From the NCBI GenBank assembly GCA_016930835.1, contig JAFGGA010000046.1, positions 1 to 57,264 of the forward strand: a stretch of DNA of 57,264 nucleotides. The letters are read 5' to 3'. The notes under the pieces were generated by a model. It made no database searches, was not told the DNA's origin, and was given only the letters and a program-made list of their open reading frames with translations. This stretch comes from Deltaproteobacteria bacterium. Lineage in GTDB: Bacteria; Desulfobacterota; DSM-4660; Desulfatiglandales; HGW-15. Below are positions 33,464-52,089 of this stretch, piece after piece. The translations under genes and the position numbers were made by a program. Numbering within the stretch: position 1 is the stretch's first letter; each line of letters begins with the position of its first letter.

Positions 33464-33979
33464 ATGAAAGGTTACGTACAGGTTTATACCGGAAATGGTA
33501 AAGGAAAGACCACGGCTGCATTGGGTCAGGCTTTGAGGGCGGCCGGTGCGGGCCTTCGGGTCTATATCGCTCAATTTTTAAAAGGCATGCATTACAGTGA
33601 ATTGCATTCTATTCAAAGGTATTCCGACCTGATCACACTCAAACAATATGGTGGTGCCTGCTTTATCAATGGAAAGCCCAGTGAGGAAGATTACAGGCTT
33701 AGCGGTTTAGGTCTTAGAGAATCCAGGGAGGCTATATTGTCAGGAAAATACGAAATGGTGATCCTGGATGAGGCCAATGTCGCCGTTCATTTTGGATTGT
33801 TAAAGGTGGAAGACCTGCTTGATCTGATCGCGATCAAACCGGAAGGCCTTGAATTGGTTATCACGGGACGCTATGCCCCAACCGAGCTTTTGGAAAAGGC
33901 GGACCTGGTTACGGAGATGAAAGAGATCAAGCATTATTACACGGCCGGTGTGCAAGCCAGGAATGGGATAGAAAAATAA
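33464..33979 (+). CDS. cobO: Cob(I)yrinic acid a,c-diamide adenosyltransferase
   Basis: A 171-residue CobO/BtuR-type ATP:corrinoid adenosyltransferase. The P-loop GNGKGKTTAALGQALRA, the AQFLKG segment, VILDEANVAVHFGLL and the C-terminal TEMKEIKHYYTAGVQARNGIE are characteristic. It attaches the adenosyl group to reduced corrinoids in the cytoplasm, the first intracellular step after uptake. It is the first gene of the corrinoid island but lies upstream of the riboswitch, so the riboswitch does not control it. Confidence 0.95.
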   Translation: MKGYVQVYTGNGKGKTTAALGQALRAAGAGLRVYIAQFLKGMHYSELHSIQRYSDLITLKQYGGACFINGKPSEEDYRLSGLGLRESREAILSGKYEMVILDEANVAVHFGLLKVEDLLDLIAIKPEGLELVITGRYAPTELLEKADLVTEMKEIKHYYTAGVQARNGIEK

Positions 33980-34220: not shown

Positions 34221-34249
34221 TTGACACCCCGCCATTTTTTTTCTAAGGA
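34221..34249 (+). promoter_or_regulatory. Candidate promoter of the btuB transcript
   Basis: TTGACA at 34221-34226 is followed after 17-18 nt by a weak -10 (AAGGAT region, 34245-34250). It sits just upstream of the cobalamin riboswitch, as expected for its transcript start. Confidence 0.4.
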
Positions 34250-34257
34250 TGTACTCT

Positions 34258-34425
34258 GTTCAGGCGCTCCATTCGGGGCTTAATAGGGAACCCCGTTAAA
34301 ATCGGGGACGGGCCCGCCGCTGTGATCGGGGACGAAAACCACTTTTATACCACTGTCCTTATAAAATAGGACGGGAAGGTGTGGTAAGTAGAGCGATCCG
34401 AAAGTCAGAAAACCTGCCAAGACAA
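34258..34425 (+). promoter_or_regulatory. Cobalamin riboswitch
   Basis: The order of conserved elements fits a B12 riboswitch: TTAATAGGGAA, GACGGGCCCGCCGCTGTGAT, a variant B12-box region (ACCACTGTCC), GGGAAGGTGTGG, and AGTCAGAAAACCTGCC at the 3' end. It lies in the leader of the TonB-dependent receptor and is followed by a terminator hairpin, so bound cobalamin should shut off the receptor transcript. Confidence 0.93.
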
Positions 34426-34483
34426 CTATATTGAGTAATCCCTTGCGGTCCCAAGGGATATTCGGTCAGTTGATAAAAAAGGG

Positions 34484-34528
34484 AAATCTCCTGATCCATT
34501 TAAGTTAAGGATCAGGAGATTTTTTTTT
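34484..34528 (+). terminator. Riboswitch expression-platform terminator
   Basis: A 14-bp perfect stem (34484-34497 with 34509-34522, loop 11 nt) is followed by a T-run at 34520-34528, ending directly before the btuB start at 34532. The 3' arm also contains AGGAG (34514-34518), the only good ribosome-binding sequence for btuB, so the same hairpin could block both transcription and translation. Confidence 0.88.
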
Positions 34529-34531
34529 GTA

Positions 34532-36553
34532 ATGATGAGAAACAAAATACATATTTTAACATTCCTGGTATTGACGCTATATCCCGCCTTCATAGCGGCG
34601 GAAGACAGGTCCGGAGTCACTACGATTGAAACGGTTATTGTCACCGGTGAAAGGCCGGAAAAGATCCAAACCGGTGATGTCGATATTGAAAGCACACCCA
34701 TACCCGTCATCGTCATTAAAAAAGAGGATTTTGAGGGAAAGATAGAAGAACTGCCGGAATTGATCGAAAAAGAAACGGGCGTTCAAGTGAGACAAACCGG
34801 TGGGTTGGGTAGTTTTTCCACGGTTTCTCTACGTGGATCAACAAGCGATCAAGTCATGGTGTTCATTGACGGCATTTTACTCAATGACGCATCCGGCGGT
34901 GCAGTCGATCTCAGTACCATAGCCCTGGGTGATGTGGAGGCCATTGAGATCTACAAAGGTGCAACACCTGGAAATCTCGGCAATTCATCCATAGGCGGTG
35001 CCATCAATATCCGGACGCTCCGATCAGAAAAGAAACCACATGCCGCTGCAAGTGTCGGGTATGGATCGTTTAACACAAAAGAGGCGAGAGGATATTTATG
35101 CCATAAACCTAATGAATGGGATTATCTTGTTTCTTTAGATGCTTTTGCCGGTGATAATGATTTTGAAATTACGAATAATAATGGAACCCCGTTAAACAAT
35201 GAAGATGACCGGGTTGAGACGCGGAATAATGCCCAGTTCGATCAATTCAATGCCCTTGGGAAATTCGGATATGACCTTTCCAAAAACAGTCGATTGCAAT
35301 TTTTGACGCAGTGGTTTTCAAAAGATCAGGGATTGCCGAGTTGGAACAATTCGCCGGTGACAACGGCATCCTTGGAAACGGAAAGGAACGTCAATACATT
35401 AAGATATACCCATGATGACATCCAAGGATCATCTCTTAATTTTTCCACATCTCTGGATTATTCAAAAAAAGTGGAAATGTATGATGATACACATGGCAGC
35501 ATAGGATTGGGCAATCAAAAGGCCAAATACGCCACGTCCCGCTATGGGGGAAATATTTATTTGGAATGGCTCGCCGTCACCCAGACACTCAGTTTATTAC
35601 TGGATGCCCACCATGAAGATTATGGTGTCGAAAATCTGCTTATGTATGAAAGGCCGTCCAACAGCACGCGAGATAGTTATTCCGCTTCTATTCAAGATAC
35701 ATTTTACCTCTTTGAAGATTCATTAACACTGACCCCCGCTGTACGTTATTCCCTCATTTCAGATTATCTGGAAAACACCGTTGATGTCTGGGGAGAACCT
35801 GGAGACAGTACAAGTCACGACAAGGATTATTTCTCGCCCCAGATGGGTATCAAGTACCATCCTGTGATCTGGCTTGTTTTTAAATCCAACCTGGGGAAAT
35901 ATTTTCGTATACCCCATTTCTATGAACTATCAGGTGACAGGGGCTTTTTAGTGGGAAATCCGGACCTTTTACCCGAAGAAGGGATGAATTTTGATATAGG
36001 GGGAGAAATAAACGCAATCTTCAACACGAATTGGTTGCAAAGCTTATCCATGAGTGGAACCTATTTTCAAAGTGATGTGGATAACCTCATTTCAATCGCC
36101 TACGATGCAAGAGGGATAGGTCAGGCTGTAAACATCCCCGGCGCAAAGATTCAAGGGTTTGAGGTTGGAATGAAAATTGATTTGTTAAAATATTTTAAGA
36201 TCATAGGTAATGCGACACTTCAAGACACGAAAAACCTGAATGAGAATAGGGCCTTTAACAACAAAAACTTGCCTGGTCGATGGGGGCAAACCTATATGGG
36301 AAGGATTGAAGCCGTTCATAAGAGCTTTAAAATCTTTACCGAGTATATCTATAACATGGATTTGTACTATGATACGGCCAACCTGTTAAAAGCCAAAGAC
36401 CAGGAAAAACTCAATGCAGGCCTGTCGGTCCAGATTGATCCTTTTTTGATAACGCTTGATATAAAAAATATTCAGGATCGTAAACATGAAGATTTTAACG
36501 GATACCCTTCACCGGGGAGATCCGTTTTTCTAATGTTGACCTATAAACATTAA
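34532..36553 (+). CDS. btuB: TonB-dependent cobalamin receptor (BtuB type)
   Basis: A 673-residue outer-membrane receptor. A signal peptide (LTFLVLTLYPAFIAAED) is followed by a TonB box (ETVIVTGE), the plug domain (about 50-165, with RQTGGLGSFSTVSLRGS and VFIDGILLND) and a 22-strand-type barrel ending in an aromatic-rich C-terminus. The riboswitch directly upstream and the following B12 genes identify corrinoids as the substrate. ATG codons at 34532 and 34535 are both possible. Confidence 0.95.
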   Translation: MMRNKIHILTFLVLTLYPAFIAAEDRSGVTTIETVIVTGERPEKIQTGDVDIESTPIPVIVIKKEDFEGKIEELPELIEKETGVQVRQTGGLGSFSTVSLRGSTSDQVMVFIDGILLNDASGGAVDLSTIALGDVEAIEIYKGATPGNLGNSSIGGAINIRTLRSEKKPHAAASVGYGSFNTKEARGYLCHKPNEWDYLVSLDAFAGDNDFEITNNNGTPLNNEDDRVETRNNAQFDQFNALGKFGYDLSKNSRLQFLTQWFSKDQGLPSWNNSPVTTASLETERNVNTLRYTHDDIQGSSLNFSTSLDYSKKVEMYDDTHGSIGLGNQKAKYATSRYGGNIYLEWLAVTQTLSLLLDAHHEDYGVENLLMYERPSNSTRDSYSASIQDTFYLFEDSLTLTPAVRYSLISDYLENTVDVWGEPGDSTSHDKDYFSPQMGIKYHPVIWLVFKSNLGKYFRIPHFYELSGDRGFLVGNPDLLPEEGMNFDIGGEINAIFNTNWLQSLSMSGTYFQSDVDNLISIAYDARGIGQAVNIPGAKIQGFEVGMKIDLLKYFKIIGNATLQDTKNLNENRAFNNKNLPGRWGQTYMGRIEAVHKSFKIFTEYIYNMDLYYDTANLLKAKDQEKLNAGLSVQIDPFLITLDIKNIQDRKHEDFNGYPSPGRSVFLMLTYKH

Positions 36554-36584
36554 CCCAAATGAATAATTGATAAAGGAGGCTATT

Positions 36585-37856
36585 ATGAAGAATTTCAGTT
36601 GTGAAAAAAGAAAATCAGGCAGGACATTTATTTCTATATCGGCATTGCTTTGCGGTCTGTTCATATCAAGCCTAACGGCATCTGCTCAGCAAACTGCGGT
36701 TGTGGCTACAGCCGCTGCAGATTATTCGAGTGGCGCCCATTCGGTGATCTCCGTGGATCCCATAGGCGGCCCCCGTGATGTACAGAACGATCTGGTTCCT
36801 ACGATCTCTGATATTTCCGTGGTGGCTTTCGGCCAATATTTTTATAGGATTGAAAAATTTATGGCAAACAATGTTATAAAATTTAATATCCGTAAGCCGG
36901 ACAAAGCCATCTGGCAGTATTCTACTGATGAACCGGGTGACACCAATAGTAACCCTCATGATCTTATTTTTCTCAGTCCTCAAAAGGCCTATCTGTTAAG
37001 GTATGAATCCAACATTGCATGGATTGTGAATCCTTCTACGACCACTGAGGCTGGTTTTAAGATCGGAGAACTCGACTTGAGGCCTTATGCGGATTCAGAC
37101 GGCATCTCGGAAATGGATAAGGGTGTCATTGTAGGCAATAAATTGTTTATTGTCTTACAAAGATTGGATAGGAACAATTTCTGGTCCCCCACCAACACGC
37201 CATATGTGGCTGTCTTCGACACAACCAATGATATTGAGATCGATACAACCCTCGTATCCGGTGTCACGAACCCCGATCCCGTTGTGGGTATACAACTTCC
37301 GGTTCATAATCCAGTCTCTATTCAATACCTGCCGGACAATGGCACCATTTATGCGGCAGGCGTTGAAGGATATTCAGCGGCTGCACCGGGCGGCATCGCC
37401 AGCATTAATCCCAACACCTATGAAGTAAATACTGTTTTGGACGGAGGCGCCCCTTATGGGGCCATTGCTGGCATCTCCATTGTATCTCCCACAAAAGGAT
37501 ACTTCGTCGGTTATGCGGGGTGGGGAGACAACACATTATATTCATTCGATCCGTCAGACCCAAATCCAGTTGGATCTGCTGTTACCGGTTTTGTGAATAT
37601 GAGCATAGGGGGTATGGACAGCACATTGGCTCTAGATGAGAATGGTATGTTGTGGATTTGCAATCAAACGGACGGACAGATCGATATCCTGGACCCTACC
37701 ACGGATAGCATCGATGAAAGCATTGACACGAATCTTAATCCACTCAAGGTCGTATTTGCCGAGGGTGAGGCTTCTGATGCGGAGGATGCTGAAGAGGATG
37801 ACGATGGTATGGCCGGTTGTTTTATATCATCTAGTGGAAGTATTTGGAAAAAATGA
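36585..37856 (+). CDS. Secreted beta-propeller-like protein next to BtuB (possible BtuG analogue)
   Basis: About 423 residues with a signal peptide (ISALLCGLFISSLTASAQQ, AxA site) and repeated propeller-like blades: GGIASINPNTYEVNTVLDGG, TLYSFDPSDP, MLWICNQTDGQIDILDP. The C-terminus is acidic and ends AGCFISSSGSIWKK, similar to the CFIATAAYGS tail of some secreted proteins. AAGGAGG precedes the ATG at 36585. In Bacteroides, BtuG is a propeller lipoprotein that caps BtuB and binds B12 tightly; this protein has the same gene position and fold type but no lipobox. A cobalamin-binding surface partner is an inference. Confidence 0.72.
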   Translation: MKNFSCEKRKSGRTFISISALLCGLFISSLTASAQQTAVVATAAADYSSGAHSVISVDPIGGPRDVQNDLVPTISDISVVAFGQYFYRIEKFMANNVIKFNIRKPDKAIWQYSTDEPGDTNSNPHDLIFLSPQKAYLLRYESNIAWIVNPSTTTEAGFKIGELDLRPYADSDGISEMDKGVIVGNKLFIVLQRLDRNNFWSPTNTPYVAVFDTTNDIEIDTTLVSGVTNPDPVVGIQLPVHNPVSIQYLPDNGTIYAAGVEGYSAAAPGGIASINPNTYEVNTVLDGGAPYGAIAGISIVSPTKGYFVGYAGWGDNTLYSFDPSDPNPVGSAVTGFVNMSIGGMDSTLALDENGMLWICNQTDGQIDILDPTTDSIDESIDTNLNPLKVVFAEGEASDAEDAEEDDDGMAGCFISSSGSIWKK

Positions 37857-38133: not shown

Positions 38134-40155
38134 ATGAAAATAGTAAAAAATAGCCTCGTTATTCTGAAAATGATCGCGGCGCATTGTTTGATTATTTTAT
38201 GGGCATCAGCGGCTTTTTCATATCCGGTGACATTCACCGATACACAAGGCAGAGAGATCACCATCCATCAGAGGCCGTCACGAGTGGTATCCCTTGTTCC
38301 CAGCATTACGGAGATCATCATGAATCTGGGTGCAGGGGATGCCCTTAAAGGCATCACGTATCACAGCACGGACATTCCAGGTGCCGCCCATAAAAACATT
38401 GTCGGTGGTTTTATCTCACCGAACCTGGATCTTGTGGAAGCGATATCTCCGGATCTCATATTTTACGCGGACATTCAAAAAGGGGTCGTGGAGAGATTTT
38501 CAAAATCATCCAGTATCCTGATCAAACCGGAGATCAAGAGTCTTGAAGATAGTTATAAGGTGATCCTTCAGATCGGGCGAATCTTTGATGTTGAGGACAA
38601 AGCTGAAGACCTGGTTCGTGAAATCAAAGAGCAACTCGAATTGGTTGCCAAAAAGGTTGACGCCATACCGCAATCCAAAAGAAAACGCGTGATACGATTG
38701 ATGGGCCTGGACCCGGTGATGGTTCCGGGTGATGACTCATTTCAAAACGAGATGATCAGGGCGGCTGGAGGTATTCCTCCTGTGCTTGGAAAGAGGGGAC
38801 AGATCGTGACCATGACCCAGGAGGAATGGAAAAAATTTAATCCCCAAATCATTTATGGTTGCGGAGGTTATACTGACATCTCCGCAAGTATTTTCAATCA
38901 GCCCGGTTGGAAGGATGTGGATGCCGTCAAAAACAGACAAATCTTTGACTTCCCATGTGATCTCACCTGTCGGGCCGCTACCCATACAGGGGAGTTTGCA
39001 GCCTGGCTATCCGCAAGGATCTACAGTGATGAATTCTCTATGCCGGGGAGACAGGTTCAACCGGATCGGACGACGGGATCGCGCCGCCTGGATATCCCCC
39101 TCACGTATGTGTTGGATTCCCGGATTACTACAAGCCTCATCAATGATTTTACCAACAAGTCACTGATCATTGATTTTGAAGAACCTTTATCCATTGTCTC
39201 GACTCTGGATGGTTATCGAACAGGGATCGAGACCGTTATGAACCATTATTCTTCACCGCCAGGTTGGGTAGTGAACCATCATTTGGATGTACCGGCCTTG
39301 AGGCGATTAATATATCCTATTCTCGGTAAACAGGAGGAGAAGACCTCGTGTCTATTCACAGGCGCGGACATGGACCATCTATCCATCAAGAAAGAGCAAT
39401 TTAAGGAGATGCAAGTCTATGCCCTTGTCACGGCAGGTGTCCGTTCCAATGCCCTTCGTATGTCCAAGGACGAAGGATTTTATTATGAACCGGGGACCAT
39501 TAATATCATTATCCTGCCCAATATGCGCTTGACCCAACGCGCAATGGCCCGCGCCATCATCAGCGCCACGGAGGCCAAGACCGCGGCCCTTTGGGATATG
39601 GATATCCGAAGCAGTTATACCCCCATGATCCATCCAGCCACCGGCACCGGAACCGATAACATCATCATCGTGGAGGGGGAGGGGCCTGACATCGATAACA
39701 GCGGCGGGCATACCAAGATGGGGGAGCTGATTGCAAAGGTCGTGTATGAAGGCGTGCAAGAAGCAGCTGATAAGCAAAACGGCATTGTGCCTGATCGAGA
39801 TATATTCCAACGCTTGATGGATAGAAAGATCAATCTCTTTGGTGTCATTACTTTAAGTGACTGCGATTGCGGGGTCAGCAAATCTCAATTGACTAAAGAA
39901 ATGGATAACCTGCTTCTAAAACCAGAGTACGCATCATTTATCGCCGCGTCACTCACATTGAGCGATGATTTTGAAAAAGGGCTTATTTGCGATCTCACGC
40001 CAATTGAGCTGTGGTGTCAAAGCATGGCCGAACGTATTGCTGAAATCAAGATTGAACAAACGAAAGACTTGATCCGGGAAAAGGGTATTCCCATCGTGAT
40101 TCGAATGTCTTTGAATGCATTGGCTAATGGGGTATATTATAAGGAGAGACCATAA
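38134..40155 (+). CDS. Exported BtuF-CbiZ fusion: cobamide-binding protein with adenosylcobinamide amidohydrolase
   Basis: About 673 residues. A signal segment (LIILWASAAFSYP) is followed by a periplasmic substrate-binding domain of the BtuF/FecB class (about 30-325: SLVPSITEIIMNLGAGD, VVGGFISPNLDLVEAI-like region). A CbiZ domain follows (about 355-555: LVTAGVRSNALRMS, PGTINIIIL, EAKTAALWDM, ATGTGTDNIII, GHTKMGELIAKVV) and then about 110 unassigned residues. CbiZ cleaves the nucleotide loop from cobamides and is normally cytoplasmic; here it is joined to a secreted binding domain. The ATG at 38134 is preferred over a TTG at 38095. Confidence 0.88.
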   Translation: MKIVKNSLVILKMIAAHCLIILWASAAFSYPVTFTDTQGREITIHQRPSRVVSLVPSITEIIMNLGAGDALKGITYHSTDIPGAAHKNIVGGFISPNLDLVEAISPDLIFYADIQKGVVERFSKSSSILIKPEIKSLEDSYKVILQIGRIFDVEDKAEDLVREIKEQLELVAKKVDAIPQSKRKRVIRLMGLDPVMVPGDDSFQNEMIRAAGGIPPVLGKRGQIVTMTQEEWKKFNPQIIYGCGGYTDISASIFNQPGWKDVDAVKNRQIFDFPCDLTCRAATHTGEFAAWLSARIYSDEFSMPGRQVQPDRTTGSRRLDIPLTYVLDSRITTSLINDFTNKSLIIDFEEPLSIVSTLDGYRTGIETVMNHYSSPPGWVVNHHLDVPALRRLIYPILGKQEEKTSCLFTGADMDHLSIKKEQFKEMQVYALVTAGVRSNALRMSKDEGFYYEPGTINIIILPNMRLTQRAMARAIISATEAKTAALWDMDIRSSYTPMIHPATGTGTDNIIIVEGEGPDIDNSGGHTKMGELIAKVVYEGVQEAADKQNGIVPDRDIFQRLMDRKINLFGVITLSDCDCGVSKSQLTKEMDNLLLKPEYASFIAASLTLSDDFEKGLICDLTPIELWCQSMAERIAEIKIEQTKDLIREKGIPIVIRMSLNALANGVYYKERP

Positions 40156-40374: not shown

Positions 40375-41883
40375 TTGGCCAAAGCACTCATGTTTCTGGG
40401 AACCGGTAGCGATGTAGGGAAGTCCATTGCCACAACCGCTTTCTGCCGGATATTCAAAAGGAGAGGCTATCGTGTCGCCCCTTTCAAGGCCCAGAATATG
40501 TCCAATAACTCCTATGTGACCATTGAAGGCGGTGAGATCGGCAGGGCCCAGGTGGCACAGGCCGAGGCGGCAGGACTATTGCCTTCGATTCATATGAATC
40601 CCATCCTGTTGAAGCCATCCGCCAATCAGGGGGTGCAAGTCGTTCTCCAAGGCAGGCCCATTGGCACCATGAAAGCCAAGACCTATTATGAACTGAAACC
40701 CCGGTTTAAAAAGGCTATAAAGGAATCATATCATTACTTGGAAAAGGATCATGATGTGATTATCATAGAAGGGGCCGGGAGTTGTTGCGAGATGAATTTG
40801 AAGGGCAATGACCTGGTCAATCTTCCTCTGGCCAAATCCTTCAGGGTGCCATGCATCCTTGTGGCGGATATTGATCGCGGTGGCGTGTTTGCCCAAATCA
40901 TCGGCACCTATCAACTTATGACACCAGCGGAACGAAAATTAGCCATGGGATTTTTGATCAACAAATTCCGCGGAGAATCGGATCTTTTCACATCAGGGAT
41001 CGATTACATTGAAAAAAGGACGGCAAAGCCGGTTTTGGGCCTGGTTCCTTATTTCCAGGATATCCATATTGACTCCGAAGACTCTGTCGCAGTACAAATT
41101 GATAAACGTCCCATAAAAACCACAGGGCCAAGAAGCGTTAATATCGCCGTGTTGAGACTTCCGACCATCTCTAATTTTACGGACCTGGAGATCCTGGAGC
41201 AGGAAGAGGACGTGATCATGAACTATCTCTCTCATTCGAAAGATCTGATAAGTGATTATGATTATTTTGTCCTCCCCGGCACAAAGAATGTCATGGAGGA
41301 TGCGGCTTGGCTCAATCGGTCCGGATGGAAAAAGGCTATCCATGAATTCGCCGGATCAGGGAAGAAAATATTGGGGATCTGCGGCGGGTACCAGCTTTTG
41401 GGGAGGATGATTCTGGACCCATGGGGGGTTGAATCGGATCGTAAGAAAGTCAAGGGACTCAATCTCTTGCCCATTACCACGACCCTTGAGGAGGAAAAGA
41501 TCGTCCGCAAGGTTATGGGGGCCTGTTTAGTTTATAACAAACCGGTTACGGGCTATGAGATCCATATGGGCACAAGCCGTATTACAGAAAAGAGGGGAGA
41601 GTCTTTTCTGAAACTTCACGTGCAAGGGAAAAAACAGGCCTGGGAAGATGGATGGAGCGTGAATCAAGGGCAGATTGCAGGTACCTACCTTCATGGGTTG
41701 TTTGATTCGCCGAATTTCAGGGGGGCGATTTTAAATGATTTGCGCTCAATCAAAGGACTATCCGCAAAAAGACCCCAGCCGGGCAGAAAAGCGAGGTTTT
41801 CTCAATATGACTCTCTGGCGGAGCATTTTGAAAAACACTGCGATGTGGATAAGATCATTCATCAGACCATGAAGGGGATATGA
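40375..41883 (+). CDS. cobQ: Cobyric acid synthase
   Basis: A 502-residue amidotransferase. The N-terminal P-loop-like GTGSDVGKS ATPase domain (1-240) is followed by a class I glutamine amidotransferase domain with the nucleophile Cys in GICGGYQLLG and the His in GTYLHGLFD. It amidates the corrin side chains b, d, e and g using glutamine and ATP. The start is a TTG at 40375 with GAGG about 10 nt upstream; the ATG five codons later would clip the first strand before the ATP loop. Its stop overlaps cobU (ATGA). Confidence 0.95.
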   Translation: MAKALMFLGTGSDVGKSIATTAFCRIFKRRGYRVAPFKAQNMSNNSYVTIEGGEIGRAQVAQAEAAGLLPSIHMNPILLKPSANQGVQVVLQGRPIGTMKAKTYYELKPRFKKAIKESYHYLEKDHDVIIIEGAGSCCEMNLKGNDLVNLPLAKSFRVPCILVADIDRGGVFAQIIGTYQLMTPAERKLAMGFLINKFRGESDLFTSGIDYIEKRTAKPVLGLVPYFQDIHIDSEDSVAVQIDKRPIKTTGPRSVNIAVLRLPTISNFTDLEILEQEEDVIMNYLSHSKDLISDYDYFVLPGTKNVMEDAAWLNRSGWKKAIHEFAGSGKKILGICGGYQLLGRMILDPWGVESDRKKVKGLNLLPITTTLEEEKIVRKVMGACLVYNKPVTGYEIHMGTSRITEKRGESFLKLHVQGKKQAWEDGWSVNQGQIAGTYLHGLFDSPNFRGAILNDLRSIKGLSAKRPQPGRKARFSQYDSLAEHFEKHCDVDKIIHQTMKGI

Positions 41884-42431
41884 TGATATTTAAAAAGGAG
41901 TTGGATAAAGGATGCGCCCTTCTCATTGGCGGCGCCAAGAGTGGTAAAAGTCGTATTGCCTTGGATATTTGTAACAAATCGGAAAAGAAAAAAATATTCA
42001 TGGCCACGGCCCAGGCTCTTGATGATGAGATGAAAAAACGAATCCAACGGCATAAGGCGGAACGGGGTGATGATTGGATCACCGTGGAGGAGTCCATCCA
42101 GATCACGGATAGGCTTGCTGAGTTGGATGCGTCAAACACGGTGATCCTTCTGGATTGTTTAACATTGTGGCTGAACAACCTGTTCATGGAAAAAGGCGAG
42201 TCGATTGAGAGCATACAGGAATCAATAGACGGCTTGCTTAAACGGCTTAGTCAAATAAAAGCCGTTGTCGTTATAGTGAGCAATGAGGTGGGAATGGGCA
42301 TTGTGCCGGAAAATGACCTGGCACGCATGTATAGAGATGTAGCGGGCTCACTCAACCAACACATCGCACAAGTCGCGAAGAAGGTCGTAGCTGTAATGGC
42401 GGGACTGCCGGTGGTGTTGAAAGATGAATGA
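41880..42431 (+). CDS. cobU: Adenosylcobinamide kinase / adenosylcobinamide-phosphate guanylyltransferase
   Basis: A 183-residue CobU/CobP enzyme. The P-loop GGAKSGKS, the RIQRHKAERGDDW motif with the guanylylated His, and LLDCLTLWLNNL are conserved. It phosphorylates adenosylcobinamide and activates it with GTP. The start overlaps the cobQ stop by 4 nt, so they are translationally coupled. Confidence 0.95.
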   Translation: MMIFKKELDKGCALLIGGAKSGKSRIALDICNKSEKKKIFMATAQALDDEMKKRIQRHKAERGDDWITVEESIQITDRLAELDASNTVILLDCLTLWLNNLFMEKGESIESIQESIDGLLKRLSQIKAVVVIVSNEVGMGIVPENDLARMYRDVAGSLNQHIAQVAKKVVAVMAGLPVVLKDE

Positions 42432-42701
42432 ATTTTCGATTAAAAATGGCTCTTTTCCGCAATCTCAGCGTCAATCTTTGGAATGAATTGTGCGGCGTAC
42501 CTATCTATGTACGCCTCCGCATAATCCCTTGGTTTCCTTGATCTTGCGAAAAATGCCTCATTTTTAGAGCGGGAATCACATGGGATTGATTAAAGACAAA
42601 TATCCAACATGAATCCCCGGAGGGGCTGGTTTTCGTAGCCTGGGGTTTCAACTCCAGGATTGGGTATATTCAATTGATTGATCATAGAAAGGACGCAAAA
42701 C

Positions 42702-43751
42702 GTGATAAAAGAAACATTGAAACAGGTCCAACCCATATCACAGAAATGGCTGAAAAAGGCGTGGAACCGATTGGATAATTTGACCAAACCCAGGCGAAGC
42801 CTGGGAATTTTGGAAGAAATAGCTGCACGCGTGGTGGCCATCCTGGAACAAGAAAGCCCAACTCTAGAAAAAAAGGAGATCTTTACATTCGCAGGTGATC
42901 ATGGCGTGATAACGGAGGGAGTGAGTGCCTATCCCCAGGAGGTCACAGGCCTGATGGTCCGGAATTTTTTAGCGGGTGGAGCAGGCATTAACGTACTGGC
43001 ACGATGTGCCGGTGCCCATGTGAACATCATTGATATCGGCATGAAAGAGGATCTTCAGGATGCGGAGGGGCTGATCAAAAGAAATGTAAAGCGAGCCACG
43101 GATAATATGGCTATCGGACAGGCCATGACCCGAGAGGAGGCGGAGAAAGCTATTTGCATTGGGATTGAGATGGCTGAGCAAGCCCATGATCGGGGAACCC
43201 ACGTGATCGCCACCGGCGAGATGGGCATCGGTAATACAACACCATCCGCCGCGGTGCTTGCTGCATTGCTACCGGCAAATGTGGAAGATGTCACTGGTGT
43301 AGGGACTGGATTAGACGAAAAAGGTCTTAAGAAAAAAATCAAGATCATCGAAAAGGCCTTAAAGGTGAATAAAGATCATTTAAATGATCCCATCTCGATC
43401 CTTGCGGCAGTGGGTGGTTTAGAGATCGCGGGTATTTGCGGTCTGTGCCTAGGTGGCGCGGCCAGGCATATGATCGTGATCGTTGACGGGTTCATTTCAA
43501 GCGCTGGCGCCCTGGTGGCTATGCGATTGAATCCATCCATTAAGGATTATCTCTTTTTCTCTCATCTGTCTTCCGAGAAAGGACACCGCACTTTTTTTGA
43601 AAAACAAGGGTTGCGTCCCATGTTGGACCTGGATTTAAGGCTTGGAGAAGGGACCGGCGCGGCCTTGGCTATGCAGATTATGGAAAGCGCGGTCAGGATT
43701 TATAATGAGATGGCCACGTTTGAAGAGGTGGGGATCGAGCCGGGGGCGTAA
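42702..43751 (+). CDS. cobT: Nicotinate-nucleotide:dimethylbenzimidazole phosphoribosyltransferase
   Basis: A 349-residue CobT. TFAGDHGVITEGVSAYP, TGEMGIGNTTPS and the catalytic-Glu segment LGEGTGAALAM are present. It makes the alpha-ribotide of the lower ligand base. A GTG at 42702 with AAAGGA 8 nt upstream is preferred; an in-frame TTG at 42678 is weaker. The 270-bp gap from cobU holds a CCCCGGAGGGG palindrome (about 42614-42624) and no gene. Which base it activates cannot be read from the sequence. Confidence 0.94.
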   Translation: MIKETLKQVQPISQKWLKKAWNRLDNLTKPRRSLGILEEIAARVVAILEQESPTLEKKEIFTFAGDHGVITEGVSAYPQEVTGLMVRNFLAGGAGINVLARCAGAHVNIIDIGMKEDLQDAEGLIKRNVKRATDNMAIGQAMTREEAEKAICIGIEMAEQAHDRGTHVIATGEMGIGNTTPSAAVLAALLPANVEDVTGVGTGLDEKGLKKKIKIIEKALKVNKDHLNDPISILAAVGGLEIAGICGLCLGGAARHMIVIVDGFISSAGALVAMRLNPSIKDYLFFSHLSSEKGHRTFFEKQGLRPMLDLDLRLGEGTGAALAMQIMESAVRIYNEMATFEEVGIEPGA

Positions 43752-43859
43752 TGGTAGGTGCAAGGCATAGGGCACATGGCGCATGGCGCAAAGCGCCTTG
43801 ATGAATCGGGATTTTCGACAGGGCGCAAAGGGAAAAGCCTAGATATAAGGATTAGACTT

Positions 43860-44636
43860 ATGCAAACCAATCCCATTCATGGTCTCTTATCAGCCTTCAG
43901 GACATTGACGATCTTGTCATGGCCAGGGAGGGAAAGTAAGGATCTTTCTTCGGCCCTTCCATGGTTTCCGGTGGCGGGGGCCGTGCTTGGTTTGTTTCTT
44001 TATGCCTTGACTTGCTTAGGAATGCTACTCCCATTTGATCCTTGGCACAGGGGTATGGCCGTCGGCGTTCTTTTGGCCGGAGTTTGGCTGACACGGGGGC
44101 TCCATCTGGATGGATTAGCGGACTGGGCTGACTCCATTGGCTCCTTTTCCAGGGAAAGGCGCCTGGAGATCATGAAAGACAGTCATATCGGTGCGTTCGG
44201 CGTTATGGCCCTGATTCTTTTGCTTATGACCAAATGGCTGGCCTATGAAAGGCTTCTCTCCTCAGGCTCCATGGTATGGATATTGATTATCATGGCCATA
44301 TCGAGAAGCATGATGGTGGAATTGATCACCACTCTACCTTATGCCCGGACCGGTGACGGCATGGGAAGGCCGTTTGTAGAAGGGGCCTCATTGAGGTATC
44401 GGTTGATATCTCACATCGTATGCCTGCTCTTTTGCCTGCCGTTTGGACCTATGGGGTTTGTCTTGTGGGGACTGGCATTGATCTTGACCCGGATATTTCG
44501 AAAACGCTGTCAAAAAGGATTCGGGGGCATCACCGGCGATCTTTTGGGAACGGCAAATGAAATGGTTGAGGTCGTTCTACTTTTTTTGTGTGCATATTTT
44601 AAGGTTCTTTTCTCTGCGTTCTCGGTGACTTTTTGA
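43860..44636 (+). CDS. cobS: Adenosylcobinamide-GDP ribazoletransferase (cobalamin-5'-phosphate synthase)
   Basis: A 258-residue multi-pass membrane enzyme. GLHLDGLADWADSIG carries the Asp-rich metal motif, SHIGAFGVMALIL and GGITGDLLGTANEMVE are typical of CobS. It joins the activated ribotide to adenosylcobinamide-GDP at the inner membrane. AAGGA lies 9 nt before the ATG at 43860; the longer frame from 43758 starts in a repeat-like stretch. Confidence 0.93.
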   Translation: MQTNPIHGLLSAFRTLTILSWPGRESKDLSSALPWFPVAGAVLGLFLYALTCLGMLLPFDPWHRGMAVGVLLAGVWLTRGLHLDGLADWADSIGSFSRERRLEIMKDSHIGAFGVMALILLLMTKWLAYERLLSSGSMVWILIIMAISRSMMVELITTLPYARTGDGMGRPFVEGASLRYRLISHIVCLLFCLPFGPMGFVLWGLALILTRIFRKRCQKGFGGITGDLLGTANEMVEVVLLFLCAYFKVLFSAFSVTF

Positions 44637-44663: not shown

Positions 44664-45743
44664 GTGGATAACAAAATAGAACATAAGCATGGTGGCAATC
44701 CTAAAGCGGATTTTATGAAATTCGGTCTGGAAGAAAAACCGGTCCTGGACTTTAGTGTGAATCTGAATCCTTTGGGGCCACCGGAGATTGTTAAGAGTTG
44801 TTGGCAGGATCTTTTTGAGGCCATTAAGGGATATCCTTCTGTCGAAGGGGAGGGTATTATTCATTTTTATCAAAATCGGTTCAATCTCCCATATGACAAT
44901 ATTTTAGCGGGTAATGGCTCCACGGAGCTGATATACCTGATTCCGCGGGTACTTCGCTTGAAAAAGGCCATGATCTTTACCCCCTCTTTTCATGACTATA
45001 CGCGGGCGTCGATGATTGCCGGAACCAGAGTGACAACCTATACTCTAATCGAGGAAGACGCCTTCGCCTTTCCTGACCCGCGATCGATAGCTGAAATGAT
45101 CAAGGATATGGATGCCCTCTGGGTGGGCCGTCCCAATAACCCAACCGGCACGGTTATTTCCAAAGATGTGATTATCGAGCTGGCAAAACAGTTTCCTGAA
45201 AAGTGGTTTATTGTAGATGAGGCCTTTATTCAGTTCGTAGAAGAATGGGAGAAAAACACCTTGTTATTTGAAAAGTCGTTTTCGAATATTTTGGTTCTCC
45301 ATTCAATGACCAAATATTATGCTCTTGCCGGTTTGCGCATGGGAGCGGTTGTGGCGGGTAGAGATGTGATCGGACGTTTGAAAGCAGCTAAAGAGCCTTG
45401 GACCATCAATGGCATTGCGGATAGGGTGGCGCCGTTACTGATTGATTGCAAGGAGTACGAGACCCGGACCGCGTTGTTTGTCTCCCAAGAACGTGATAGG
45501 GTGTATCATAGGCTTCAGGGATTGGATGGAGTGCTGCCTTTTCTGGGTACGGCCAATTATTTGCTTTGCCAATGGAATGCTATCAAAAATCTGGATGATC
45601 TACTTCGTCACCTCATATCGAATGGGATATATATTCGAGATTGTCGTAATTTCAAGGGTCTTGAAAAGAATTTTTTCAGATTTGGCCTCCGATCTCAGGA
45701 AGAGAACGATAGATTATTGCATTTGTTGGAAGGATTGGTTTAA
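44664..45743 (+). CDS. cobD: Threonine-phosphate decarboxylase (HisC-like)
   Basis: A 359-residue fold-I PLP enzyme related to histidinol-phosphate aminotransferase. HGGN at the N-terminus, DFSVNLNPLGPP, VGRPNNPTGT, the PLP-contacting VDEAFIQF and the lysine motif SMTKYYALAGLRMG match CobD. It makes aminopropanol phosphate, the linker of the nucleotide loop. GTG start with GGAGG 4 nt upstream. No threonine kinase is adjacent. Confidence 0.92.
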   Translation: MDNKIEHKHGGNPKADFMKFGLEEKPVLDFSVNLNPLGPPEIVKSCWQDLFEAIKGYPSVEGEGIIHFYQNRFNLPYDNILAGNGSTELIYLIPRVLRLKKAMIFTPSFHDYTRASMIAGTRVTTYTLIEEDAFAFPDPRSIAEMIKDMDALWVGRPNNPTGTVISKDVIIELAKQFPEKWFIVDEAFIQFVEEWEKNTLLFEKSFSNILVLHSMTKYYALAGLRMGAVVAGRDVIGRLKAAKEPWTINGIADRVAPLLIDCKEYETRTALFVSQERDRVYHRLQGLDGVLPFLGTANYLLCQWNAIKNLDDLLRHLISNGIYIRDCRNFKGLEKNFFRFGLRSQEENDRLLHLLEGLV

Positions 45744-46198: not shown

Positions 46199-47203
46199 AT
46201 GATCATGCTGGAACTATCATTCATTCTCATTATCGGCTTTTTCATGGATCTGATCATTGGTGATCCGCAATATCGATATCATCCCATAAGAATGATAGGA
46301 AATGGCATTGCCAAACTAGAAAGAATTTTAAGACGATTCGGTTTAGACAGCAGGGGCGGTGGAATTATCCTGGCATTCTCAACAGTGTCCATCACCTTTT
46401 GTATCTATCTGGTTATTACCCACTTGTTTGACCGCATCCACCCAATCCTCGGCTGGTGTTTCAATCTTTTTGTTTTTTATTCGTTGTTGGCGCTGCAGGA
46501 CCTGTTTCATCACATTCGACCGGTAAATACGGCCTTGGGTGCGGGTCATTTGCCTGAAGCCCGTAGTGCCGTGGCCAGGATAGTGGGCAGGGATGTAGAG
46601 GATCTGAATGAACAGGGCATTATCAGAGCAGCCATCGAGACTATTTCTGAAAATTTTGTAGATGGATTTTTAAGCCCTTTGTTTTGGTTTTTGGTCGGCG
46701 GTTTATTCGCCTTTTATCTTAGGTTCGATCCCGTTCCCGCGGCCTTGAGCCTGATGCTTGCAACTAAAGTGGCCAGCACACTGGATTCCATGGTGGGGTA
46801 TAAAATCCCCGACTACTTAAGGTTTGGTTGGGCAGGTGCCCGACTAGACGATATCATGGCCTTTATTCCGGCAAGGCTTTCAGTTTTCATCCTTTTTTTA
46901 GGGGCATGGGTCAGCGGATTGCGTGCCTCCACTGGTTTTCGAGTAGCCTTTCGCGATCGGCTCAAACACGATTCCCCCAATGCCGCCCATGCTGAGAGCT
47001 TTGTGGCGGGAGCCTTAAATGTAAGATTGGGCGGCCCGACACGATATAGCGGAGAGTTGAAAAATAAGCCCTGGTTGGGTGAGGAATTCCCTGATCCTGA
47101 CGCAGGCCATATCCGATTGACGGAAAGATTGATTAGAACGTCAGCATGGATTTTTGTGCTTATTGTAGAAGGCATTTTGGCGGTTATCATTATTTGCCGA
47201 TAA
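46199..47203 (+). CDS. cbiB: Adenosylcobinamide-phosphate synthase
   Basis: A 334-residue membrane protein of the CbiB/CobD(Pseudomonas) family. DLIIGDPQYRYHPIRMIG at the N-terminus, ETISENFVDGFLSPLF, and DSPNAAHAESFVAGAL...LGGP are characteristic. It attaches aminopropanol phosphate, made with CobD, to cobyric acid. Either of two ATGs (46199, 46205) may be used; no strong ribosome-binding site is visible. Confidence 0.94.
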   Translation: MIMLELSFILIIGFFMDLIIGDPQYRYHPIRMIGNGIAKLERILRRFGLDSRGGGIILAFSTVSITFCIYLVITHLFDRIHPILGWCFNLFVFYSLLALQDLFHHIRPVNTALGAGHLPEARSAVARIVGRDVEDLNEQGIIRAAIETISENFVDGFLSPLFWFLVGGLFAFYLRFDPVPAALSLMLATKVASTLDSMVGYKIPDYLRFGWAGARLDDIMAFIPARLSVFILFLGAWVSGLRASTGFRVAFRDRLKHDSPNAAHAESFVAGALNVRLGGPTRYSGELKNKPWLGEEFPDPDAGHIRLTERLIRTSAWIFVLIVEGILAVIIICR

Positions 47204-47353: not shown

Positions 47354-48250
47354 GTGAAAGACTTTACCATGCATCACAGAAAAATTATTTTAAAAGTCAT
47401 GATATGCTTTCTTATCCTGGGCAGTTCATTACCCGTATTTGGTGAAACATTTGAGGACGCCATGGGGAGAGAGATCACGCTCCATAAGGCCCCTGCACGG
47501 ATTATCCCGCTTGCCCCCAGCCTCACGGAGATCGTTTATTTTTTGGGACTTGGAGATCGAGTGGTGGGGGTCACGGAGTTCAGTTATTATCCACCTGAGG
47601 CCATGGCAAAACCGAAGGTCGGCAGTTATATCAACTTGAATATAGAGCGGATTATCAGCCTTTCGCCCGAGTTGGCCATCGGCACCAAGGACGGTAATCA
47701 GCCCGGCATTATCGAATTGCTTGAACAGGCAGGCATTCAGATCTTCATCGTCAATCCCAGAAAAGTTAAGGACGTGATTAAGACCATATCTCAAATCGGT
47801 GATGTATGTGGTGTTTCCGAAAAGGCCGGGTTGCTGACAAGGCAACTCAATCAGCGGATGGAACGGATCCAATCCGTTATTGCAACCAAAGAAAGGCCGC
47901 TGGTGTTTTTTCAGATTAACCTTCGACCCATCATGACGGTGAATCGCGACACATTTCATCATGATCTCATCACATTGGCGGGTGGTCTGAACTTGGCACA
48001 AGACGAGCCCATTACGTACCCAAGGATCAGTCGGGAAGAAGTGATTCGAAGACGCCCTGATGTAATCATCATTTCCTCAATGGACAGGGGTGGAGGTTTT
48101 GAAGATGCGAGACAAGAGTGGCTTGAATGGCCGTCCATACCGGCCGTTAAACATAACCGTGTTCATTTGATCAATTCCGATCTTACGGACAGACCATCAC
48201 CCAGGATTATCGACGGGCTTGAAGCAATGGTGAGAATGATTCATCCATAA
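47354..48250 (+). CDS. btuF: Periplasmic cobalamin-binding protein
   Basis: A 298-residue substrate-binding protein. A signal peptide (MICFLILGSSLPVFGETF) precedes a two-lobe domain (PLAPSLTEIVYFLGLGDRVVG, RIISLSPELAIG, SREEVIRRRPDVIIISS). It is homologous to the N-terminal half of the BtuF-CbiZ fusion and is followed by BtuC and BtuD, so it is the main delivery protein of the ABC importer. A GTG at 47354 or the ATG at 47369 may start it. Upstream is a small palindrome near 47289-47311. Confidence 0.9.
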   Translation: MKDFTMHHRKIILKVMICFLILGSSLPVFGETFEDAMGREITLHKAPARIIPLAPSLTEIVYFLGLGDRVVGVTEFSYYPPEAMAKPKVGSYINLNIERIISLSPELAIGTKDGNQPGIIELLEQAGIQIFIVNPRKVKDVIKTISQIGDVCGVSEKAGLLTRQLNQRMERIQSVIATKERPLVFFQINLRPIMTVNRDTFHHDLITLAGGLNLAQDEPITYPRISREEVIRRRPDVIIISSMDRGGGFEDARQEWLEWPSIPAVKHNRVHLINSDLTDRPSPRIIDGLEAMVRMIHP

Positions 48251-48447: not shown

Positions 48448-49497
48448 GTGTTACAAAGTAGAGAAGACCTTTATTCTTTAAGACCCATAATAACCCTAAA
48501 AAAGGTTGTATTGCTTTCATCGATCATGTCCTGTGTGCTCCTAATGGTGATGGTTTTGTCATTGATTGTCGGCACGGCTGAGATTTCATTAAAACAGGTG
48601 CTGGGACTTATTCAAGGGACCTTATCGATGGAAGATCCCGCGAGACTCATCATCCTTAAGATCCGGCTGCCGCGAATCATACTCGCCGGGCTCGTGGGTT
48701 TCGCCCTCTCCCTGGGGGGCGTGGTATTTCAGGCCATATTGCGAAATCCCCTTGCAGATCCTTTTATCCTCGGCGTTTCCAGCGGATCGGCCTTCGGCGC
48801 GGTACTGGGTATCATATTCGGATTCGGCTTCAAGCTTGGCATTCCCGTTATGGCTTTCGCCGGCGCGCTTTTTACGATCTGGCTGGTCATGACATTAGGT
48901 TCCAGGCAGATGGGTATGGAATCCTCGACGATACTGCTTACGGGTGTAATTATAAACGCATTCTTTACGGCCATTATCATGTTTTTTATCTCCACATCTT
49001 CTGATTCCAGGTTGCATACCATGCTCTTTTGGCTCTACGGGGACCTTTCCCAAAGCCAATACGGCCAGTTGGTCATCATCGCCCCAATGGTGCTTATGGC
49101 ATCCTTGGTTCTTTTCGGCCTGGCAAAGGATCTCAATATCCTGACATCGGGAGAGGAAAACGCCCTGCAATTGGGTGTGGAGGTGGAAAGAACGAAAAAG
49201 CTCGGACTCCTGATCATCTCTTTAATCATGGGATTGATCGTGGCGTTTTCGGGATTGATCGGTTTTGTGGGTCTGATCGTACCTCATCTCAGCCGGATGG
49301 CCTTTGGGGCCGACCATCGTCAACTGATCCCCATAGCATCAATAGGGGGCGCTATCTTTCTCATTTCGGCGGATACGCTGGCCAGGACCGTTATCTCCCC
49401 CAGTGAATTGCCCGTGGGCGTGATCACGGCGTTTTTGGGTGCGCCCTTTTTTATTATTCTTCTTAAAAAGAAAGGCAGCCAATGGAGCCGGTCCTGA
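48448..49497 (+). CDS. btuC: Cobalamin ABC transporter permease
   Basis: A 349-residue FecCD/BtuC permease with about ten membrane helices. RLPRIILAGLVGFALSLGGVVFQAILRNPLADP and GFVGLIVPHLSRMAFGADHR are family hallmarks. GTG start at 48448 with GAGGGGG 10 nt upstream. It overlaps btuD by 16 nt. Confidence 0.94.
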   Translation: MLQSREDLYSLRPIITLKKVVLLSSIMSCVLLMVMVLSLIVGTAEISLKQVLGLIQGTLSMEDPARLIILKIRLPRIILAGLVGFALSLGGVVFQAILRNPLADPFILGVSSGSAFGAVLGIIFGFGFKLGIPVMAFAGALFTIWLVMTLGSRQMGMESSTILLTGVIINAFFTAIIMFFISTSSDSRLHTMLFWLYGDLSQSQYGQLVIIAPMVLMASLVLFGLAKDLNILTSGEENALQLGVEVERTKKLGLLIISLIMGLIVAFSGLIGFVGLIVPHLSRMAFGADHRQLIPIASIGGAIFLISADTLARTVISPSELPVGVITAFLGAPFFIILLKKKGSQWSRS

Positions 49498-50258
49498 CCT
49501 TAAAACATATCGGTTTCAGGTATGAACTGGCATGGGTGCTCAGGAGTATTGACATCCAAGTTCATGCCGGTGAGATCTTGGGGATCCTCGGTCCCAATGG
49601 TTCGGGAAAAAGCACGCTCTTGAATATCATGGATGGGGTGTTGACGCCCCAAGAGGGTGAAGTCCGGCTCAACGGGCATAATCTTCATGATTTAAATCGA
49701 TCCGCTATCGCAAAAAAGGTAGCCATGGTCTCTCAGGAGAATCATTTTCGATTTTCTTTTTCCACCCTTGAAGTGGTGCTCATGGGGCGGTTTCCTCATT
49801 TGGGACGTTTGCAATTTGAAGGTAAAAAGGACCTAGACATTGCCAGGGATGCATTAAGTGCAACCCACGCCGAGGACCTGGCACAACGATCCATCCATGA
49901 ATTGTCCGGTGGGGAAAGGCAGAGAGTTCTTTTGGCTCGCGCATTGGCCCAGGAACCCCTGGTTATCCTTTTGGATGAACCCACATCCTTTTTGGATCTC
50001 AAATTCAAGAGGGAGATCTTCCGGTTAATCGCCGCATTAAGCGAGGAAAGAGGGGTGAGTGTGGTGGTGGTGTCACACGATATTGACCTGTTATCGCAAT
50101 ACTGCCGTCATCTCGTGATGCTCAAACAAGGTTCGATCTTTGCCGAGGGAAAGCCTGAAGAAGTCATCACCACATCCAATATTGAAACGGTTTATGAATG
50201 TCCGGTGATGGTCGACCAAAACCCCGTGTCCGGAAAACCAAGAATCAACGTGGTATAG
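49482..50258 (+). CDS. btuD: Cobalamin ABC transporter ATPase
   Basis: A 258-residue ABC ATPase with Walker A GPNGSGKST, signature LSGGERQRVLLARAL, Walker B VILLDEPTSFLD and the switch His in VVSHDIDLL. It drives BtuC. The overlap with btuC indicates translational coupling. Confidence 0.94.
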   Translation: MEPVLTLKHIGFRYELAWVLRSIDIQVHAGEILGILGPNGSGKSTLLNIMDGVLTPQEGEVRLNGHNLHDLNRSAIAKKVAMVSQENHFRFSFSTLEVVLMGRFPHLGRLQFEGKKDLDIARDALSATHAEDLAQRSIHELSGGERQRVLLARALAQEPLVILLDEPTSFLDLKFKREIFRLIAALSEERGVSVVVVSHDIDLLSQYCRHLVMLKQGSIFAEGKPEEVITTSNIETVYECPVMVDQNPVSGKPRINVV

Positions 50259-50404: not shown

Positions 50405-51064
50405 ATGTTAGATTTTTTTATCAAAGGCGGTCCGGTGATGTATCCGCTGCTGGCCTGTTCTATTCTCTCTTTAACCGTGATCATTGAGCGCATCTTATTC
50501 TGGGTTCGAGAGGATATGTCTCGAGATCAACGCCTGGTGGATGATGTATTGGAGCTATGTCGCAAGGGAGAGTGGGATGAAGTCAGGACACGGGTAACCG
50601 GATCCAGAGATTATATTATCCGTATCCTGGTTGCGGGGATCCTTCATAAAGATTTTTCCATGGTAAAGGCCATGGAGACCGCGGCCACGGATGAGATCAA
50701 GCGAATGCGCAAATACCTCAGTGTACTGGATACCATGATCACGGTCGCCCCCTTGTTGGGGATCTTCGGGACGGTCCTGGGTATTATCACGTCTTTTGAG
50801 CTTCTGGGTACAAGCGGTATTGAACATCCACAGGCCGTCACGGCAGGAATCGCCCAGGCCCTCATCACAACGGCCTCCGGCCTGGGTATTGCAATCTTGG
50901 CCGTTTTTCCATTTAACTACTTTAATTCAAGGGCGGAGAACGCCGCTGCCTATATTGAAAAATATGCCACCAGTCTTGAGATTGTATACGAAAAACTGGC
51001 TCCTCAATCTGTGGGTACCACCGGAAGAGCCAACGATCTAGGCGAAATCAAAAGGAGAACCTAG
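50405..51064 (+). CDS. exbB: ExbB-type MotA/TolQ/ExbB proton channel
   Basis: A 219-residue inner-membrane protein with three membrane helices (about 10-30, 110-135, 150-175). APLLGIFGTVLGIITSF and ALITTASGLGIAILAV are the conserved proton-channel segments. GGAAGG precedes the ATG. With exbD and tonB downstream it forms the energy module for the BtuB receptor. It is separated from exbD by a 614-bp repeat-filled gap. Confidence 0.93.
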   Translation: MLDFFIKGGPVMYPLLACSILSLTVIIERILFWVREDMSRDQRLVDDVLELCRKGEWDEVRTRVTGSRDYIIRILVAGILHKDFSMVKAMETAATDEIKRMRKYLSVLDTMITVAPLLGIFGTVLGIITSFELLGTSGIEHPQAVTAGIAQALITTASGLGIAILAVFPFNYFNSRAENAAAYIEKYATSLEIVYEKLAPQSVGTTGRANDLGEIKRRT

Positions 51065-51198
51065 CGTTACTGCTGGCCATTAAAATGTCCAGATTGAATG
51101 AAAATGAAATTTATCAACCATATTTGGTTTATTTAAAATAGGAATTCCCCTCTCCCTGTCCCTTTCCCAAATGGGGGCGTGTCGTAATTCCTATAGCC

Positions 51199-51307
51199 GT
51201 CATTCCGGACGAGCGAAGCGAGATCCGGAATCCAGAAATGCTAAGCAAAATTAATGACTTCTGGATTCCGGCTCGTGCCCCATTTCATGGGGCTTGGCCG
51301 GAATGAC
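51199..51307. repeat. 109-bp palindromic element, GTCATTCCGG ends
   Basis: The ends GTCATTCCGG (51199-51208) and CCGGAATGAC (51298-51307) are exact complements. Inner arms ATCCGGAATCCAGAA and TTCTGGATTCCG pair as well, so the whole element can fold into one long hairpin. Confidence 0.8.
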
Positions 51308-51454
51308 GAATTGCTACACAGCCTCTGGCGGGAGGGGATTACCGGGCTTTTCTATGAGAAGCGTCAAGCGGGTGTATGATCAATGTTATATGAACTCTTG
51401 TGTGAAACTACAAGGAATCCATAGTTCTTTTATCCTACGTATTAGCCTTTTTTT

Positions 51455-51556
51455 GTCATTCCGGCGAAGGCCGGAATCCAGTCCTTTCAGACAGTTACAT
51501 GGACTCTGGACCCCGGCCGCAGTCTATCCTGTACTTGATGCGGGACCGGGGTGACG
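51455..51556. repeat. Palindromic element of the GTCATTCCGG family
   Basis: It begins with GTCATTCCGG and an internal GGCCGGAATCCAG arm, and ends CGGGACCGGGGTGAC, complementary in part to the GGACCCCGG words inside it. Second copy of the family within the exbB-exbD gap. Confidence 0.65.
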
Positions 51557-51678
51557 ACTAAGTTTCCTTTCCGTTCAATCCGGGCTTTTTTGCGCCCGGC
51601 AGCAAAGCTGGATGTTGGATTATACCCAGCATGACGAAAGAACTATAGAACCTAACGCTTATGTAAAAGGACATTAAG

Positions 51679-52089
51679 ATGAAAGTTCACATTCAAGCAG
51701 GAAAAAGGCCGCGCATCGAGATGCTGCCGCTTATCGATATCGTGTTTTTACTTTTGGTGTTTTTTATCTATGCCATGTTATCCATGACCGTACATAAAGC
51801 CCTGCCCGTTGCCTTACCACAATCATCCACCGCGAAAATCGATAAAAAGCAGGTCCTATCTATTACCATCCTGTCTAATGGAGGCATTTACCTGGATAAG
51901 CAAAAAGTTTTACTGGATCGCCTTAAAGGGCGTTTAGAAGAGATTCATGCAGAGGAAGGCATTGCCGGTGTCTCCATTTTTGCTGATAAGACCGTTTCAT
52001 ACCAGGCCCTTTTTCGTGTCATGGATCAGGTCCGGTTGGCCGGTGTCAATCGGATTTCATTGCAAGCGGAGGTTGAACAAGGGTCTTGA
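51679..52089 (+). CDS. exbD: ExbD/TolR-family biopolymer transport protein
   Basis: A 136-residue protein with a short cytoplasmic N-terminus, one membrane helix containing the essential Asp (PLIDIVFLLLVFFIY) and a periplasmic domain with VSIFADKTVSYQALFRVMDQ. It works with ExbB to energise TonB. Its stop overlaps the tonB start codon (TTGA). Confidence 0.93.
   Translation: MKVHIQAGKRPRIEMLPLIDIVFLLLVFFIYAMLSMTVHKALPVALPQSSTAKIDKKQVLSITILSNGGIYLDKQKVLLDRLKGRLEEIHAEEGIAGVSIFADKTVSYQALFRVMDQVRLAGVNRISLQAEVEQGS

Follow-up and report, generated by a model that had tools for sequence, protein, structure and literature searches.

Anaerobic bacteria of several phyla appear to export a BtuF-CbiZ fusion that may cut cobamides in the periplasm

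Many anaerobic bacteria appear, from their genes, to export an enzyme that binds B12-like molecules in the periplasm and removes their lower part there, ahead of their entry into the cell. The case examined here is a gene at 38134-40155 of the window (the whole 57,264-nucleotide stretch that was analysed, on whose + strand all of the window features below lie), encoding in one chain a signal peptide, a BtuF-like solute-binding protein (SBP) domain, the amidohydrolase CbiZ and a helical tail. We read its product, at a probability of about 0.7, as a soluble periplasmic corrinoid-remodelling enzyme that would capture a corrinoid, cut it and hand it over for import; its ligand, catalysis, substrate and hand-over are what we infer.

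The gene is a single open frame from an ATG at 38134 to a stop at 40153-40155 and encodes 673 residues. Residues 1-29 (38134-38220) form the signal peptide, its cleavage point estimated, and residues 30-302 (38221-39039) a class III (helical-backbone) BtuF-like binding domain, recognised by structure match and by Pfam Peripla_BP_2 (PF01497), which spans residues 51-274 (75 bits; cut-off 27.5; E 7e-21). The same chain carries the CbiZ amidohydrolase domain (PF01955; residues 348-541, 39175-39756), identified by its Pfam score of 177.5 bits against a cut-off of 27 (E 4e-52, profile positions 2-191 of 191), by its invariant residues and by its model. The frame, the Pfam matches, the signal-peptide rules and the invariant residues thus confirm the preliminary description, which had seen a signal segment, a BtuF-like domain and complete-looking CbiZ motifs together. 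The last ~130 residues (132; 39757-40152) are a C-terminal helical tail with no Pfam match; long cytosolic CbiZ proteins have a homologous tail (hhalign 92.5%, E 5e-7, 132 columns), and that of the window protein therefore arrived together with CbiZ. CbiS, which joins CbiZ to alpha-ribazole phosphatase (NF038002), likewise has a helical C-terminal part after CbiZ, but the window protein scores 88.4 bits on that profile, under the cut-off of 250, and its tail alone matches CobZ phosphatase only at E 0.14.

Relatives were sought among 84,980 species genomes, and the nearest 80 CbiZ loci were compared; most had the same arrangement, which was seen wherever the frame was complete enough to judge. 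When the phylum was sampled evenly (297 genomes), CbiZ turned up in 59, and in 38 of the 59 its frame was of fusion length (judged by ORF length). Recurrence in both samples rules out a chance or assembly join. Fused CbiZs form one clade (support 98/88) in a tree built without the Cytobacillus row, which had given a 7.5-long branch, and on this tree the fusion CbiZ has a single origin. The clade is mainly Desulfobacterota, whose carriers among isolates include Desulfoluna, Desulfogranum and NaphS2, and extends to metagenome-assembled genomes (MAGs) of Synergistota, Nitrospirota, Spirochaetota and Planctomycetota; some of these outlier-phylum carriers could be artefacts of MAG binning. CbiD is present in 27 of the 38 fusion genomes, so auxotrophs are not alone in having the enzyme, and we rejected the idea of the fusion as solely an adaptation to auxotrophy. 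A plasmid search did not find the full-length fusion. Three complete fusion genes stand in tandem in one locus (L098:2561-9289), and G016 has two paralogues on one contig, 39% and 51% identical to the fusion of the window.

The N-terminus of the window protein, MKIVKNSLVILKMIAAHCLIILWASAAFS followed after the estimated cut by YP, has three lysines, a hydrophobic core and small residues preceding the cut, and would be cleaved by signal peptidase. By simple rules (a basic n-region, then a hydrophobic core, then small residues ahead of the cut) used in place of a trained predictor, signal peptides were recognised in the window protein and in 81 of the 85 homologous fusions, compared with 1 of 12 cytosolic CbiZ loci. 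No second hydrophobic segment able to span the membrane was found in the window protein (highest 19-residue mean 0.93). It might still be argued from the simplicity of these rules that the N-terminal segment does not export and that CbiZ acts in the cytosol as usual, but we consider this extremely improbable: canonical n-, h- and c-regions are present in those 81 fusions, CbiZ is fused to a class III SBP, for which we know of no cytosolic role, exported-type CbiZ occurs alone, and four-part proteins end in a docking-competent SBP.

The last two architectures deserve description. Four loci (L135, L136, L137 and L138) encode, directly downstream of a TonB receptor, a CbiZ of ~280 residues with its own signal-like N-terminus and without a binding domain; the signal-peptide rules hold strictly in three of them, and the L137 protein satisfies them only from a non-ATG start just upstream of the hydrophobic core. 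In L045 and L077 a binding domain, CbiZ, tail and second binding domain form a single chain (two PF01497 stretches), and L051 and L079 have the same four-part layout with the N-terminal part cut by the contig. The last SBP of these proteins has glutamate at both BtuC-docking positions, and BtuC is the next gene in L045, L051 and L079; most of the four are followed by BtuC and BtuD. The last part of such a chain must meet BtuC from outside, and therefore CbiZ should be outside too. Together, the BtuF-less exported CbiZ and the four-part proteins make periplasmic action likely. Export, and a role ahead of inner-membrane transport, had been proposed in the preliminary description, and are well supported by the signal peptides, the TonB/BtuFCD context and these two architectures. 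A 163-residue exported-type CbiZ missing its middle (L142:3397-3885) also adjoins a TonB receptor, and reflects a deletion or an assembly error.

Upstream of the fusion the window holds, in order, a CobO/BtuR corrinoid adenosyltransferase (33464-33979, by Pfam), a cobalamin riboswitch aptamer (34245-34435; RF00174, 98.8 bits), a strong terminator-like stem with a T run (34481-34528), a TonB-dependent receptor with a BtuB-like role (34532-36553, by Pfam) and a probably exported protein (36567-37856) with a signal-like N-terminus, no Pfam or NCBIfam match and the ending GCFISSSGSIWKK. Homologues of this last protein occupy the same place, after the receptor and before the fusion, in L038, L039, L049 and L057; by analogy with the BtuG propeller of Bacteroides, it may bind corrinoids at the outer surface. 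Downstream come, by Pfam, CobQ/CbiP cobyric acid synthase (40375-41883), CobU (41880-42431), CobT (42678-43751), CobS (43758-44636), a CobD-type aminotransferase-fold protein (44664-45743, assigned also by cluster position) and CbiB (46199-47203), which attaches aminopropanol to cobyric acid; then, by NCBIfam, a separate BtuF (47354-48250) that has both docking glutamates (E98 and E228, by alignment), BtuC and BtuD (48448-50258), and ExbB/TolQ-type, ExbD-type and TonB genes (50405-52904). The salvage enzymes expected next door are therefore in place (CobU, CobT, CobS, CobD and CbiB), and every gene for rebuilding a cobamide from cobyric acid adjoins the fusion except a recognised alpha-ribazole phosphatase. 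CbiD and CbiC are absent from the source genome assembly (95% complete), which should therefore depend on imported corrinoids; it has one cobalamin riboswitch and one CbiZ only. Among fusion loci of at least 8 kb (n = 53), a TonB receptor was found in 36, a further BtuF in 23, BtuC in 18, BtuD in 18 and TonB in 16. Besides that of the window, cobalamin riboswitches were recognised in 8 of the 11 loci tested for them; the one in L035 immediately precedes the fusion, and L029 has two in tandem (1972-2402) upstream of its receptor-CobO-fusion cluster.

The window protein has every residue (T409, T433, G435, N439, G454, T455, E480, G504-D508, H526 and G530) that does not vary among fused, exported and cytosolic CbiZs, so that neither of the two weaknesses foreseen for the proposal, a missing signal peptide or missing catalytic residues, was found. 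AlphaFold2 modelled the whole fusion, with 59 sequences, at pLDDT 88 and pTM 0.85, with low confidence in the invariant loops 443-450 and 496-505; CbiZ and tail modelled alone (39157-40152) gave pLDDT 85. The best matches of the latter model were DOM-fold amidases, namely Nyl50 (Z 12.6), BapA (11.8), ThnT (11.7), NylC (11.5), ornithine acetyltransferase (OAT; 11.4) and DmpA (10.8), this class (S58/DmpA, NylC, OAT) reaching Z 10-12.6, whereas the first unrelated entry after it had 8.9. CbiZ is thus predicted to resemble in fold the DOM-fold self-processing amidases (DmpA, NylC, ornithine acetyltransferase). Kinship with S58 peptidases at the sequence level was not supported, the profile-profile comparison not being significant; its best local match, a weak one (P 0.057), puts the invariant GT455IN on the S58 nucleophile-starting strand, a suggestion that T455, in the motif G454-T455-I-N457 (39493-39504), is the CbiZ nucleophile. 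T505 and T507, in the invariant loop T503-G-T-G-T-D508 (39640-39657, of low model confidence), are as invariant as T455. A search of the PDB found no CbiZ relative or solved structure. CbiZ hydrolyses the amide linking aminopropanol to the corrin ring, so the product of the fusion, by analogy, should be cobyric acid and not cobinamide; of the two products that had been named for it, cobyric acid thus stands and cobinamide falls away.

The fold of the binding domain is that of the class III binding proteins, among which haem binders rank first (2r7a, Z 27.1) and E. coli BtuF a few Z units lower (1n2z, Z 23.8), and therefore fold alone names no ligand; by score, too, the domain is equally close to haem/siderophore binders and to BtuF. 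A class III helical-backbone SBP fold and a signal peptide, two features of BtuF, are present in the window fusion, and the BtuF-like fold claimed for it holds. The domain is not an orthologous BtuF, scoring 32.7 bits on the BtuF equivalog (PRK03379 / NF002894, NCBIfam), below the cut-off of 234; the separate BtuF at 47354 scores 150, likewise below. From gene context we infer a corrinoid as ligand. The fusion shares with E. coli BtuF, besides fold and corrinoid gene context, the cleft arginine R246 (R280 here, retained in 84 of 86 fusions), and differs in its attached enzyme, in docking glutamates that are relaxed at the family level and in three cleft cysteines. These are C243 (38860-38862; 79/86 fusions by alignment), C275 (79/86) and C279 (77/86), the latter two lying with R280 in a conserved motif FPCxLTCR (38956-38973) and aligning with S241 and E245 of E. 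coli BtuF. They may serve as a cobalt ligand, a disulfide or a metal site; the separate BtuF of the window is without them.

On our main reading, the signal peptide would export the fusion to the periplasm, where its BtuF-like domain would bind cobamides (or cobinamide) after their passage through the outer membrane by way of the TonB receptor. CbiZ would then hydrolyse the amide holding the aminopropanol/nucleotide loop, the separate BtuF-BtuCD would import the cobyric acid, and cytosolic CbiB, CobD, CobU, CobT and CobS would rebuild a cobamide with the cell's own lower ligand, CobO adenosylating. The CbiZ reaction has no need of ATP and therefore suits the periplasm, and the predicted amidase-type fold, needing none, counts for action there. 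The chief difficulty is the upper ligand. Corrinoid adenosyltransferase requires ATP, and adenosylation is cytosolic. The substrate of a known CbiZ in the assay of PMC7733943 was an adenosylated corrinoid, Ado-pseudocobalamin. A periplasmic enzyme must therefore accept non-adenosylated or already adenosylated corrinoids.

Other readings keep the export of the fusion and change its work. It could be a transport binding protein whose cutting takes place during docking on BtuCD, only cobyric acid being fed into the channel. BtuFCD adjoins the fusion in many loci, and the window protein retains acids at both docking positions (D99 and E230), and therefore might still dock on BtuC. E. coli BtuF docks on BtuC via two glutamates, numbered Glu74/Glu202 (PMC3741162), which are E72 and E202 in the sequence used here, matching PDB 1n2z. 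Glutamate stands at each of these positions in 37 of 38 stand-alone BtuFs of these loci but in only 24/86 and 50/86 fusions, where K, G and A are common (the rows are related, so that Fisher values overstate the contrast, the direction of which is clear). As many clusters also have a separate BtuF, and four-part proteins carry a second, docking-competent SBP, we judge docked cutting unlikely.

Somewhat better placed, as a minority possibility, is that the substrates of exported CbiZ are limited to cobinamide and other incomplete corrinoids, so that it serves salvage rather than the remodelling of complete cobamides. Archaeal CbiZ is a cobinamide amidohydrolase (PMC3541065), and cob salvage genes adjoin the fusion. 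Against this, R. sphaeroides CbiZ cleaves pseudocobalamin (PMC7733943), and cutting cobinamide would be wasteful, because CobU, also present, could use it directly. The low model confidence in the two invariant loops would allow CbiZ to be no longer an enzyme and instead a second corrinoid-binding module, but residues invariant in cytosolic CbiZ stay invariant in about 85 fusions, and a pure binder would not need them; we hold this very unlikely.

Cobamide remodelling has so far been described as a cytosolic, post-uptake step, and to our knowledge the known CbiZs lack a signal peptide and work on corrinoids already taken up. The D. mccartyi protein (L148) is without one. The CbiZs of Rhodobacter sphaeroides, archaea and Dehalococcoides (PF01955) share with that of the window the catalytic domain, the invariant residues and the link to cobamide salvage or remodelling; unlike them, it is fused to an SBP and predicted to be exported. 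That CbiZ is a remodelling enzyme and clusters with transporters is already known (PMC7733943, PMC8620254 and PMC4285132). A BtuD-CbiZ (ATPase-amidohydrolase) fusion in Cytobacillus (L150) likewise ties CbiZ to a corrinoid ABC importer, but on the cytosolic side, through the ATPase. CbiR of Akkermansia also starts cobamide remodelling, with a link to uptake proposed, but is of unrelated fold and cuts the phosphoribosyl bond, and the available text of its description (PMC7733943) mentions no SBP fusion. Our literature search, which did not reach the main CbiZ papers, found no description of an exported CbiZ or an SBP-CbiZ fusion. Domain databases will list the fusion architecture.

If periplasmic remodelling is correct, importer specificity would be bypassed, any cobamide in the periplasm becoming cobyric acid. 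Neighbours might receive cobyric acid and freed loop fragments by leakage, and predictions of cobamide exchange in sulfate-reducing communities would change. The exported protein would also offer a separable enzyme for testing the CbiZ mechanism.

Only tentatively do we propose a more dedicated machine for capture, cutting and relay, in which the non-docking first SBP would hold the corrinoid via the cleft cysteines (perhaps with thiolate on cobalt) while CbiZ reaches the nucleotide loop, the ring then passing to a docking-competent BtuF. That receiving BtuF would lie within the same chain in some species, and a CobN-like chelatase would be added in others. On this view many anaerobes would remove the lower ligand in the envelope.

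In L084 (4981-10881) the fusion runs on into a CobN-type chelatase (PF02514, 1067 bits), and likewise, judged by eye, in L076. A hydrophobic helix closes both chelatase fusions at the C-terminus; with the signal peptide it suggests a periplasmic, membrane-anchored chelatase.
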